Notes under the pieces: model-generated
Seen by the model: the letters and a program-made list of their open reading frames with translations, nothing else
Database searches by the model: none
Told to the model about the DNA's origin: nothing
Position numbers and translations under genes: made by a program
Shown: positions 33,294-40,375 of the stretch, in pieces
How positions within the stretch are numbered: position 1 is the first letter of the stretch
Layout: each line of letters starts with the position of its first letter
Source of the DNA: an uncultured Alphaproteobacteria bacterium
GTDB lineage: Bacteria > Pseudomonadota > Alphaproteobacteria > RF32 > CAG-239
Direction: 5' to 3'
Assembly (NCBI GenBank): GCA_944390375.1
Contig: CALXPZ010000079.1
Location: 1-40,375, forward strand
Length of the DNA stretch: 40,375 nucleotides

Positions 33294-33953
33294 ATGAAAA
33301 AATATTTATTATTTGTCTTCAGTTCGTTGGTTGTTGCCGGATCTTTAAGTTTAATCAACATAAACAACGGATCTGTTTTGTTTCTGGGGCTCATCATCGC
33401 CGTAGCAGCTTATATTAAGCTGTCAATCGATGAATATCAAATTAAAGATATATTCATCAAGGCCGGATGGTCTATGATTATATATTCGATTTTTGTCTTA
33501 TGTATGTCATTTCCGTTCAGTAACGAATGGTGGATAGTGGCAGCCGGTGTATGCATTACATCAGTTTATACATTCATTCCCATTTTAACCAAAAAAATGG
33601 AATTGGATTATTTTAAGTATGGCTGCGGCCGAAACGGCATTAAATTTTGGATATTATTTTTCCTCAGCCTGTTTTTTCTTGTTGTCATAGCTGACAGTGA
33701 AGCAAAAAAAGAGGAAAAAATGGAAGCCGAATATGCCAAAGCGGCATTTGTGGGAATTGAATCCGTCAGCAAGGAAATCTACCGGGGCAACACCTATTAC
33801 GTGGTTGTTACCGAAAGCGGAGATATCTTTGGTGTCGATGCCCGCAAATATCCGGAAATAAGAACGGCGAACGAACAAAGCGAGGTTAAGTATGTCATTG
33901 ACAGCTACAAAGTCAACGGCTTACAAAAACCTTTTAAGCTGGAACTGAAATAA
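33294..33953 (+). CDS. membrane protein with conserved C-terminal domain (paralogue 1)
   Basis: The product has 219 residues and no recognised family. Four membrane segments are predicted in the first ~145 residues (about 3-20, 22-38, 55-95 and 120-138), followed by a soluble C-terminal domain of about 80 residues containing SKEIYRGNTYYVVVTESGD and KYPEIR. The protein at 34104 has the same plan and matching sequence (KEIYQGKTVYIVTTKDGT, EYPAIR, IFIKAGWS versus VFVRAGWS), so the pair arose by duplication. Base composition is more AT-rich than neighbours. A strong terminator follows. Confidence 0.75.
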   Translation: MKKYLLFVFSSLVVAGSLSLININNGSVLFLGLIIAVAAYIKLSIDEYQIKDIFIKAGWSMIIYSIFVLCMSFPFSNEWWIVAAGVCITSVYTFIPILTKKMELDYFKYGCGRNGIKFWILFFLSLFFLVVIADSEAKKEEKMEAEYAKAAFVGIESVSKEIYRGNTYYVVVTESGDIFGVDARKYPEIRTANEQSEVKYVIDSYKVNGLQKPFKLELK

Positions 33954-34103: not shown

Positions 34104-34850
34104 ATGAAAAAAAATAAGTTTTGGATCGAATTATGGTCCAAGTATGGGAAATTTGTGTTTGCGGGAGCGAGCCTGCTTTTTCTGCTTATTGTCCTGCTTT
34201 GTGGTTCTTACGATGGCATAATGCTGACTTTTGCGGTGATTGTCATGTTAATCGCCTTTTTTAGACTTGATATATGCAATCTGCCGATAAAAAGCGTTTT
34301 TGTCCGTGCCGGCTGGAGTTTGATAATGGGAGCCGTGTTTGTTCTGGTTGTACCGTTGCTGACTTACAATAAAGACGGGTTTATTCATCATTTTCCAGGC
34401 TATATAGCGGCTTATATTGTGGTTATAAATATTTATGCTTTTTCTTCCATAATATCTTACCATATGAAGCTGAATGATCTAAACAGCGGATGTGCTTTCT
34501 GGCCTCTGGCAGAGCCGGTAGAAACAAAATTAAACGGTGTACTCCTATGGTTGCTTGTCTCTACCGTGCTTTTTATTTCACTGTTTGTGATTGAAACGCA
34601 CCAATATGATAACTACCGTTTCAGCAAAGCAGAGTTCACGGACGTTATTTCCTGGGAAAAAGAAATTTATCAGGGGAAAACAGTATACATCGTTACAACC
34701 AAAGACGGTACTTTTAGCATCAGCCCCTGGGAATATCCGGCAATCAGGAAAATTAATCCAAACACAAAATTGAAAATACTTTATGACCAGTCAAACGATA
34801 ACAACAAAAATCAATGTCTGCCTGTCAAACGACTGGAAATAAAGAACTAA
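34104..34850 (+). CDS. membrane protein with conserved C-terminal domain (paralogue 2)
   Basis: The product has 248 residues. Four or five membrane segments lie in the first ~165 residues, then the same soluble C-terminal domain as the gene at 33294 (KEIYQGKTVYIVTTKDGT, EYPAIRKINPNTKLKILYD). Its own promoter must lie in the 33.95-34.10 kb gap, which is AT-rich (a TATATATTG segment at 34055-34063), because a terminator separates the two genes. Function is unknown. Confidence 0.75.
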   Translation: MKKNKFWIELWSKYGKFVFAGASLLFLLIVLLCGSYDGIMLTFAVIVMLIAFFRLDICNLPIKSVFVRAGWSLIMGAVFVLVVPLLTYNKDGFIHHFPGYIAAYIVVINIYAFSSIISYHMKLNDLNSGCAFWPLAEPVETKLNGVLLWLLVSTVLFISLFVIETHQYDNYRFSKAEFTDVISWEKEIYQGKTVYIVTTKDGTFSISPWEYPAIRKINPNTKLKILYDQSNDNNKNQCLPVKRLEIKN

Positions 34851-37973: not shown

Positions 37974-39383
37974 TTAACGGGCTCCCAAAAGCGAAAAAGC
38001 CGATATCGTATCGCCCATACCGACCAGGGTTTTGGGGTGGTCAATGATGATGGCGGGAACGGCTATGACGTCGCAGCCCGAATAAGATCCCAGCCCTGTC
38101 AGCAAAAAGTTTTCATCAGCCAGAAAAGCGGACAGTTTTTTTAATCCCTCAATTCCGTATTGACTGACGGGCATTGAGACCGCGGCTGTCAAATCGCGGT
38201 AGGAAGCCAGTTGTCCGGTCAGGGCTTTGGAGGCGGCCGCAGCAGCGGCCAGAACCATACCGTTTCTGTCGGCAGCGGGAGAAATCGGGAAATTTTTATC
38301 CTGCATGGTCATGTAAAGTCCGAACATATGGAGCTGGATGCGCGGGCAGCCGGTTTCTTTTTTGATTGCGGCAAGAGCTTTAAACATATTTTCCGGCGAG
38401 GGCTGACGGCGGCATTCTTCGGCCAGCGTTTGTTGTCCGAGAACTTCCAGAAAGTCGATGGCTTCGCGCTCGTTTAAGCCGGCGGAATCGGCAAGCGGCA
38501 TAATCAGCCGGGCAACGCTTTCGCGGACGGCCGTGTCCTGCGTGGAGGCTATTTCCAGATGGATAACCGGCCGCGGATTTTTCTGCCGCCATTGTTTGAT
38601 AACGGGGATCGTTTTTTTGACCAGCGCGGTTCCGTTGTTGTTTTCGCTTAAGGCCTGGTAGCCGGAAAGAATGATATAGTCAACCGGTTCGCGGAAAGTA
38701 AAGTCCGTAAAATGCGGGTCTATCACCAGATTGAACAGTACCGGATCATAGGTGGCAATAAAACGGTTTGATTTCGGACAGGTGAAAGTTTTTCCCTCAA
38801 TTTCCAGGCTGTCGCCTTTGGAAAATTCGATAATCCAATGAACGGAGGCTTCTTCCCCGGGGCGGTCAATCTGATATGCCGGTTTTAAGACGCCGCTTTC
38901 GTCAAAAGAAAGAAGATTGTTTTTTTTAAAAAATTGTTCTGCCTGCAAGGCGGGCAGAGAAGCAACGTGGGCTATAACCCTTTTGATGCCGGTCAGCGAC
39001 ATGGTATTGGCAATGATCCCCGCCTGCGCTCCCATCTGAAGTTTGCGGGTGCCGAGTTCTTTTTTCATCCATTGATAAATTTCGGGATCTTCGGCCGTCC
39101 ATTCTTCCGCAATCCCCAGAGTAAAGCAGCGGAAAATGCCGCGGAGAATATCTTCAGGACGGCGGATACCGCGGGTCGGGATATTTTCCAGATCGGCCAG
39201 ACTCATGCCTGCCTGATTTATTCTTGCCTGTAAGTCGCTGCCGGAAAAACGGACGACGGAATCGACATTGGCATTGAAAGCGGCGGCCAGAGTGCCGATT
39301 TCTTCCATTTTAGCCAGGGTTTCGGGCGCTTTTTCGTATTCTTTCCGCCAGCTTTCTGCAATTTGTTCAGGGGAGGGATACAT
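37974..39383 (-). CDS. ADP-dependent glucokinase/phosphofructokinase family protein
   Basis: The product has 469 residues. ADP_PFK_GK family landmarks run in order: AAFNANVDSVVRF (about 33-45, sugar site), MGAQAGIIANTMSLTGIK (about 117-134), PALQAEQFF, IIEFSKGDSL, DYIILSGYQAL, HLEIAST, IQLHMFGLYMTM and the C-terminal VGMGDTISAFSLLG with the catalytic Asp. The fold uses ADP rather than ATP to phosphorylate glucose or fructose 6-phosphate and is best known from Archaea and animals. Which substrate applies here is undecided. AAGGA precedes ATG 39383, which overlaps the upstream stop by 17 bases. Confidence 0.85.
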   Translation of the reverse strand: MYPSPEQIAESWRKEYEKAPETLAKMEEIGTLAAAFNANVDSVVRFSGSDLQARINQAGMSLADLENIPTRGIRRPEDILRGIFRCFTLGIAEEWTAEDPEIYQWMKKELGTRKLQMGAQAGIIANTMSLTGIKRVIAHVASLPALQAEQFFKKNNLLSFDESGVLKPAYQIDRPGEEASVHWIIEFSKGDSLEIEGKTFTCPKSNRFIATYDPVLFNLVIDPHFTDFTFREPVDYIILSGYQALSENNNGTALVKKTIPVIKQWRQKNPRPVIHLEIASTQDTAVRESVARLIMPLADSAGLNEREAIDFLEVLGQQTLAEECRRQPSPENMFKALAAIKKETGCPRIQLHMFGLYMTMQDKNFPISPAADRNGMVLAAAAAASKALTGQLASYRDLTAAVSMPVSQYGIEGLKKLSAFLADENFLLTGLGSYSGCDVIAVPAIIIDHPKTLVGMGDTISAFSLLGAR

Positions 39384-40375
39384 TTTTTAATCCTTCGGTT
39401 TTCATCAATGCCAGCGAATAGGCGGAAATCTCGGAAAGAGCGCGGTTAAATTTCAGTTTGGAATCGGTCGTTGCATACCAGCGGGCGAGCTCTTTATCGG
39501 CGAGCAGAGGCTGGTTTTCCTCTTGGGAAAGCATTTCTACCGCGATGGCAAACTGTCCATCGTCAACATATTTTCCGATTTCCTTTAATGCCTTGATTTC
39601 CGGAGTTTCATTTTCGGTTCCGGAAATACGGATATATTCGTTGATTTTTCTTAATAAACGGTCTTTCCAACTGCCCCGGCGGTTGAAATCGGAAATGATG
39701 CGGCCGCTGATTTGATTGAACCCGGAAACAAGGTTTTTGTCGGAAGGATACTGACGAGAAGAATTGTTATAAATATAATTGATTTGGGTTTCTATTTCCG
39801 GCTCGGCGGCGGCCAGTTGTTTTAATACTTCCGCCTCAAAGCGCACCGGTTGCCCGGCGGCAGCGTTTTCTTTTATCATCATGGCGGCGGTCAGTATCAA
39901 AGCCCCGTCGTTTGAAATTTGCGCCAGTTTCGCCGTTCTTTTTTCCAGTGCGTCGAGCCTTTCGCCCATGCTGATGACGGCCGAAGAATCGGCTTTGATA
40001 TTCATATACTGGTTGGTCAGGTTTTCCATTTTGCCGACTTTGTCATAAAGACGGTTGATGGCGTTACTGATACTCTCCGGGATAACATATTTGATTTCTG
40101 TAACCGGTTCCTGCGGACGCGGGGCAGAAACTTTCTTTTCGGCCGGTTTTTCAGCCGGTGCCGCTTTGGGAGCGGGAACAACCGCCGGAATATGCGCCGG
40201 TCTTTCCGTTTGTGCCTGCATCGGCAGCGGTTTGTGTTCAGGCAAAATCATTTTTTCATAATAAACGGCGGCGGCCAGGACGCCGGCGGCAATTATCAGC
40301 GCCGTAAGCAGCGCCGGTACGGAAGCCTGACCGGAACATTTTTTTTCTTTTTGGTCGGGAACAGGCTGGTTGTCC
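39367..40375 (-). CDS. Mic60/mitofilin-like inner-membrane protein, 5' end beyond the window
   Basis: The frame is open to the right edge, so the start lies outside. Visible residues: a Lys-rich segment, then a membrane helix (ALLTALIIAAGVLAAAVYY at about 40263-40319), a Pro/Ala/Lys linker, a coiled coil (NAINRLYDKVGKMENLTNQY) and a helical C-terminal domain. Segments such as AAAGQPVRFEAEVLKQLAAAEPEI, SWKDRLLRKINEYIRI and DDGQFAIAVEMLSQ match the layout of alphaproteobacterial mitofilin-type proteins (COG4223), which shape inner membranes. The match is by pattern only; other coiled-coil membrane proteins are possible. It is coupled to the kinase gene downstream. Confidence 0.55.
   Translation of the reverse strand, partial: DNQPVPDQKEKKCSGQASVPALLTALIIAAGVLAAAVYYEKMILPEHKPLPMQAQTERPAHIPAVVPAPKAAPAEKPAEKKVSAPRPQEPVTEIKYVIPESISNAINRLYDKVGKMENLTNQYMNIKADSSAVISMGERLDALEKRTAKLAQISNDGALILTAAMMIKENAAAGQPVRFEAEVLKQLAAAEPEIETQINYIYNNSSRQYPSDKNLVSGFNQISGRIISDFNRRGSWKDRLLRKINEYIRISGTENETPEIKALKEIGKYVDDGQFAIAVEMLSQEENQPLLADKELARWYATTDSKLKFNRALSEISAYSLALMKTEGLKNVSLP

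Follow-up and report, generated by a model that had tools for sequence, protein, structure and literature searches.

A predicted ADP-dependent glucokinase of archaeal type in an order of gut Alphaproteobacteria

ADP-dependent glycolysis has been treated as a speciality of some Euryarchaeota, and ADP-dependent phosphofructokinases of the PFK-A family were recently reported from cyanobacteria and Azospirillum. The presence of an apparent archaeal-type ADP-dependent sugar kinase near the end of a 40,375-bp contig from an uncultured alphaproteobacterium (hereafter the window, meaning the whole stretch analyzed) raises the questions of which sugar and which donor the enzyme uses, how the gene reached its host, and whether the rest of glycolysis is built to match. 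The explanation that we favor, and that we consider highly probable as a whole, is that of an ADP-glucokinase acquired once from archaea and inherited vertically, which would serve an ADP-driven priming of the Embden-Meyerhof pathway with recycling of AMP. The gene product, a member of the ADP_PFK_GK family of the ribokinase superfamily, would convert glucose and ADP into glucose-6-phosphate and AMP; from the data below we infer that ADP is the donor and glucose the acceptor, and that flux through such a pathway would be sustained by AMP recycling.

The minus-strand open reading frame lies where the first-pass annotation had placed it, is intact, starts with ATG and encodes 469 residues. The 3′ end of an upstream ORF overlaps its coding sequence by 17 nt. 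The features of the locus are as follows.

37974..39383, minus strand: coding sequence of the predicted ADP-dependent glucokinase, 469 aa, stop codon included (PF04587, E = 1.4e-64; AlphaFold pLDDT 92.6; Z 45.9 against Pyrococcus horikoshii ADP-GK)
39391..39396, minus strand: GAAGGA, Shine-Dalgarno-like sequence 7 nt 5′ of the kinase ATG (direct reading)
39367..40374, minus strand: upstream ORF, open at the contig end, with one membrane segment and a coiled coil (no Pfam family)
39261..39275, minus strand: NxNxD sugar-binding motif, N37, N39 and D41 (alignment to N32/N34/D36 of 6c8z)
39102..39104, minus strand: E94, at the position of E90, where glucokinases and bifunctional enzymes have Glu and PhPFK has Ala (alignment; PMC7948494)
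38838..38846, minus strand: S180-V181-H182 in place of K179/N181 of fructose-6-phosphate-binding enzymes, with His as in Thermococcales glucokinases (alignment; PMC7948494)
38763..38765, minus strand: R207, equivalent of catalytic R206 (alignment)
38745..38747, minus strand: D213 in place of R212 of fructose-6-phosphate-binding enzymes (alignment)
38553..38561, minus strand: HxE motif, H275-E277, Mg-ADP binding (alignment)
38463..38474, minus strand: NxxE motif, N304-E307, Mg-ADP binding, with Asn as in Pyrococcus glucokinases (alignment)
38010..38021, minus strand: GMGD, residues 455-458, with catalytic base D458 (alignment)

The predicted protein matches the ADP_PFK_GK family (Pfam PF04587) over nearly its full length, with 218.9 bits (E = 1.4e-64) against a curated cut-off of 27 and an alignment spanning profile positions 3-429 of 430. 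Every PDB match with E < 1e-4 is to an ADP-dependent glucokinase or phosphofructokinase or to a reconstructed ancestor of such enzymes, and the best ones share about 28-30% identity with the window kinase, with E values down to 2.5e-58. The GxGD base (G455-D458), HxE (H275-E277), N/DxxE (N304-E307) and the conserved Arg (R207) are in place, as are the MGxQ loop at 117-120 and H352, and NxxE rather than DxxE is the form found in Pyrococcus glucokinases. These observations bear out the first-pass annotation, which had assigned the protein to the ADP-dependent kinase family and described its landmark motifs, including the terminal GMGDT, as intact, with one correction: in the MGGQ loop the window kinase and its genus relatives (L017/L086 and L040/L087) carry Ala in place of the Gly found in the other family members. 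The scores fall below the NCBIfam equivalog cut-offs both for ADP-PFK (217 of 408 bits) and for ADP-GK (PRK14038 and PRK14039, 201 of 554 and 187 of 387 bits, respectively), and the high PRK14038/PRK14039 values appear to be set for archaeal orthologues. Because these archaeal equivalog cut-offs are not reached, the assignment of specificity rests on residues, and we file the protein as a divergent, putatively glucokinase-type member of the family rather than as a PRK14038/PRK14039 equivalog.

The identity of the sugar can be approached through the binding site. In the structure of an ancestral enzyme with fructose-6-phosphate, Lys179, Asn181 and Arg212 serve the substrate and are conserved only in phosphofructokinases and bifunctional enzymes, while glucokinases and bifunctional enzymes conserve Glu90, and the Thermococcus litoralis glucokinase has His at position 181 (PMC7948494). 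The window kinase has the glucokinase set, with E94 and H182 at the Glu90 and His181 positions and S180 and D213 in place of Lys179 and Arg212. This pattern of Glu, non-Lys, His and Asp recurs in all 22 order proteins checked (K179 to S/L/M/P, N181 to H, R212 to D); residues of the E90/H181/D212 type are common to these 22 proteins, five Asgard proteins and two Thermococcales glucokinases, with K179/N181/R212 on the phosphofructokinase side. An ADP kinase for another sugar, such as glucosamine, N-acetylglucosamine, mannose or a host-derived sugar, is nevertheless a minor possibility to be taken seriously. The Gly-to-Ala exchange at the sugar loop and the variation of position 244 between H, N and Q would suit it, and glucose could then be taken with ATP by the one ROK kinase of the genome, for which the top-ranking models (N-acetylmannosamine kinase and ROK glucokinase) do not reach their cut-offs. 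Against it, the glucose-contact residues of Thermococcales glucokinases are otherwise retained.

We regard as improbable, more so than another sugar, that the protein is an ADP-phosphofructokinase, or a bifunctional PFK/GK resembling that of Methanocaldococcus. Its best single sequence match is the ancestral Methanosarcinales ADP-PFK 6c8z, its top-scoring NCBIfam model is ADP-PFK, and E94 occurs in bifunctional enzymes too, but the three residues that hold the phosphate of fructose-6-phosphate are substituted in the window kinase and throughout the 22 order sequences, the genome already has a PFK-A, and in a maximum-likelihood tree the order kinases share a branch (96/92) with PfuGK and PhGK. 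This tree omits the long-branched Heimdallarchaeota sequence L160 and includes a kinase from another alphaproteobacterial family (G591). Tree support for the glucokinase grouping is moderate, since an earlier unrooted tree with L160 and without G591 drew the Thermococcales branch on the opposite side. Because residues, tree and structural model agree, we conclude that the subtype is predicted to be ADP-glucokinase and not phosphofructokinase; of the double designation glucokinase/phosphofructokinase given by the first-pass annotation, the family stands and the residues narrow it to the former.

The same structural model bears on the donor. An AlphaFold prediction built from 16 aligned sequences (mean pLDDT 92.6) adopts the two-domain ADP-kinase fold, with Z scores of 39-46 over 421-463 residues in VIA-align comparisons: 44-46 against most Thermococcales glucokinase structures (rmsd 2.1-2.9 Å) and 39 against the P. 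horikoshii ADP-specific PFK, versus about 20-22 against ATP-type adenosine kinase and ribokinase. Nothing specific favors a reversion of the donor to ATP, as used by other ribokinase-fold kinases, and we hold it to be very improbable given these Z scores, the His at position 360 and the intact HxE/NxxE set, all as in ADP enzymes.

The host is an alphaproteobacterium, as indicated by the core genes rho, mnmE, mnmG, radA and dnaX in the window (dnaX scores above the threshold of PRK09111, its best model) and by close homologues in MAGs deposited as Alphaproteobacteria. Contamination of the assembly from an archaeon, to which only the archaeal nature of the nearest outside relatives might point, is practically untenable, being refuted by a gene order shared by 19 loci and contradicted by the alphaproteobacterial core genes on the 40-kb contig, by a base composition like that of the neighbors and by homologues 43-62% identical in many independent alphaproteobacterial MAGs. 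The kinase gene has a GC content of 0.514 and a GC3 of 0.557, close to those of five neighboring genes (0.402-0.497 and 0.423-0.549, respectively). In each of the 19 order loci examined, the kinase gene is preceded by a homologue of the membrane/coiled-coil ORF, which is Mic60-like by place and build only; a TPR gene intervenes in some, and wherever order contigs extend far enough tsaD and mostly nth, both profile matches over cut-off, lie divergently upstream. Elsewhere in the window, two adjacent plus-strand ORFs (33294-33953 and 34104-34850) encode paralogous proteins with multiple membrane segments, also paired in the related locus L086, and an 809-aa minus-strand ORF (3184-5613) matches LonB protease weakly and partially (152 of 516 bits) and does not resemble the typical bacterial Lon.

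Of 153 order genomes, 115 carry the gene, and 16 of the 17 genera are represented among them; it is absent from about a quarter of the genomes, so the kinase is not indispensable. In a smaller sample it occurred in 29 of 34 order genomes (the window's own included) and in none of 23 genomes from other families of the class. Among 398 genomes sampled evenly across the phylum, two were positive, the window's own and one with a divergent match (G480), and among 385 sampled genomes of the class a single carrier lay outside the order (G591), its kinase having the residues seen in the order kinases. Outside the order, matches in Pseudomonadota thus number two among about 760 sampled genomes, and the rarity that the first-pass annotation ascribed to the family in Bacteria is confirmed for this phylum. 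Named relatives are MAGs submitted as uncultured Alphaproteobacteria, proteobacterium or Rhodospirillaceae, and the isolate names of several, such as RUG410, buffalo colon, roe deer rumen and jejunum, denote rumen or intestine. Viral contig scans revealed no viral carrier, and the only plasmid carriers were four haloarchaeal plasmids with about 26% identity. The gene of G591 (L168, on C19) encodes the same glucokinase type and adjoins metal ABC transporter genes, with genes resembling an NADH-linked [FeFe]-hydrogenase operon a few kb off. The divergent ADP_PFK_GK protein of G480 (L166/L169, C25:12751-13665; 53-61 bits), from another alphaproteobacterial family, has a DeoR-type regulator encoded next to it; it retains GxGD, HxE and R206, has lost most sugar-site residues and may be a kinase that acts on another substrate.

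A single acquisition, from an archaeal lineage near the Asgard enzymes, would have brought the gene into the ancestor of this order of gut Alphaproteobacteria, or into a slightly earlier ancestor, and vertical inheritance at a fixed locus would have followed. To leave room for outgroups, the patterns used in the genome-collection searches were designed to pass over most order members, and of 183 relatives the best 80 were retained. Among these best 80, the nearest matches outside Alphaproteobacteria come from Heimdallarchaeota (31-32% identity) and then Methanosarcinaceae (about 28-31%), and other bacteria are represented by one Firmicutes MAG; the statement that there are no closer bacterial relatives holds only within the search patterns used, and distant bacterial members may be missing. 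In the phylogeny that the first-pass annotation had called for, the order forms one clade (100/99) joined to Asgard sequences (99/97), and the tree with G591 and without L160 separates glucokinase-type sequences (order, G591, Asgard and Pyrococcus GK) from phosphofructokinase-type ones (96/92). The G480 protein, which lacks the sugar-site residues, and mouse ADPGK, for which alignments were partial, were left out of the trees. The order clade, the gene order shared by all 19 loci and the neighbor-like GC and GC3 are why one old acquisition followed by vertical descent, with scattered loss, fits these data. Since the trees are unrooted, the direction from archaea to bacteria is one that we infer from the wide archaeal distribution of the family. 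The gene is fixed across the order and is not a stray transfer peculiar to the window genome, so that the transfer proposed by the first-pass annotation is refined into an old one. The Firmicutes sequence (L158, DGFC01000181.1, MAG UBA3910) is a PFK-type ADP kinase (K179/N181/R212, with Tyr at 90) that clusters with a Micrarchaeota sequence and seems to have entered Bacteria by a separate transfer.

The kinase would catalyze step 1 of the Embden-Meyerhof pathway on glucose freed inside the cell or imported unphosphorylated, and step 3 would probably be ADP-driven as well, through a PFK-A of the GGDGSxxI type. The genome encodes one PF00365 phosphofructokinase (G000:C30:3462-4367; L030:3384-4529), with GGDGSMNI and PKTIDND. 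Shen et al. identified GGDGSxxI as the signature of ADP-dependent PFK-A, GGDGSxxG as that of ATP-dependent and GG(D/E)D as that of PPi-dependent enzymes, and ADP specificity has been confirmed for the Azospirillum brasilense PFK-A (PMC11609450). A PPi-dependent reading is rejected because the motif is GGDG and not GGDD. Twelve of 13 order phosphofructokinases have GGDGSxxI, Val replacing Ile in the other. The partner enzyme combines this signature with identities above 40%, namely 45% to the Acaryochloris protein and 47-49% to other alphaproteobacterial PFKs, with which it forms a clade (100/99) apart from five PFKs of other bacteria, in a tree composed of sequences other than biochemically proven ADP-PFK-A. 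The Ilyobacter polytropus plasmid PFK (L063) has GGDGSQKI and falls outside this clade, so either it is a further ADP-PFK or the motif is non-exclusive; for this reason GGDGSxxI alone leaves the donor unsettled. As the partner has both signature and clade, we predict from its sequence that it uses ADP, and both priming steps may then do so, as in Pyrococcus, which strengthens the suggestion of the first-pass annotation that glycolysis here can run on ADP. In addition to an ADP-type PFK-A, the sister-family genome encodes another PF00365 protein, which is longer (L036, G033:C93:8816-9757).

The search for ATP-dependent pfkA and glk advocated by the same annotation was carried out by family searches on the window genome, which is 85% complete. 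Its sole PF00365 match is the one with the ADP signature, and neither the PF02685 glucokinase (Glk) nor PTS_EIIC was found in this 85% complete genome. The ROK kinase remains as a possible ATP glucokinase and hence an ATP route, and profile models leave the specificity of one PfkB-family sugar kinase unsettled.

The first-pass annotation had also proposed that ADP use would save ATP, and this part is unsupported in that form. Phosphorylation of glucose by ADP yields glucose-6-phosphate and AMP, and adenylate kinase spends one ATP on returning this AMP, so that by itself the use of ADP comes to the same net cost as an ATP kinase. A gain would require another way of recharging AMP, for example by pyruvate phosphate dikinase (PPDK) using PPi, which in the glycolytic direction converts PEP, AMP and PPi into pyruvate, ATP and Pi. 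PPDK is encoded in the window genome (TIGR01828, 1354 bits against a cut-off of 843), and the family occurs in nearly all order genomes. The two AMP formed per glucose, which would match two PEP, might thus return via adenylate kinase or go straight to ATP via PPDK. Pyruvate kinase is encoded as well, so PPDK has not replaced it and need not be the AMP sink, and the coupling is hypothetical. That both priming kinases run on ADP throughout the order, with AMP converted to ATP by PPDK at the expense of biosynthetic PPi, is a tentative extension that we rate as plausible yet rather doubtful.

If correct, our interpretation would describe a second, independently built ADP glycolysis, in mesophilic, host-associated gut Alphaproteobacteria and, with PPDK recycling, a bacterial analogue of the Thermococcales pathway that nets more ATP. 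Why cells choose ADP would become testable as AMP coupling to PPDK, energy-charge control or fast restart after starvation. The trait would be hidden in gut-community metabolic models because the NCBIfam models that best match the partner PFK carry the name "ATP-dependent". ADP-glucokinase, ADP-PFK-A and AMP-linked PEP conversion are each already known singly. The occurrence of the ADP_PFK_GK family in bacteria has been noted in general terms (PMC7948494), and one study that first seems to report a bacterial ADP-GK in fact reports its absence (PMC7761423). Within the open-access papers searched, we found no report of an ADP-glucokinase in Alphaproteobacteria or of both ADP kinases in one bacterium.

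Among known systems, the closest in fold are the archaeal ADP-glucokinases of T. litoralis and Pyrococcus furiosus (glkA; 1gc5, 1ua4), which share with the window kinase the full-length fold (Z 44-45), the catalytic motifs and the Glu, His and Asp residues; in contrast, the window kinase is only 28-30% identical to them, carries Ala in the MGGQ loop like its genus, belongs to a mesophilic gut bacterium and is paired with a PFK from a different family. The Asgard (Heimdall-/Lokiarchaeota) ADP_PFK_GK proteins L099, L100, L142 and L154 join the order in one clade (99/97) and have glucokinase-type residues, yet are about 27-32% identical to the window kinase. Mouse ADPGK (5ccf) has the same fold (Z 33) and reaction class at 18-19% identity. 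The partner PFK-A resembles the cyanobacterial and Azospirillum ADP-dependent enzymes (PMC11609450) in GGDGSxxI, PKTIDND and 45-49% identity, and this family is non-homologous to the window glucokinase, so that the order pairs a PFK-A with an archaeal-type ADP-glucokinase. The ADP/AMP-coupled glycolysis of Thermococcus kodakarensis, in which PEP synthase is proposed to recharge the AMP (PMC8100219), is similar in its ADP priming, predicted here, and in having an enzyme converting PEP to pyruvate that is able to make ATP from AMP, whereas the order has PPDK (AMP and PPi) instead of PEP synthase, together with pyruvate kinase, and only the glucokinase is homologous between the two.
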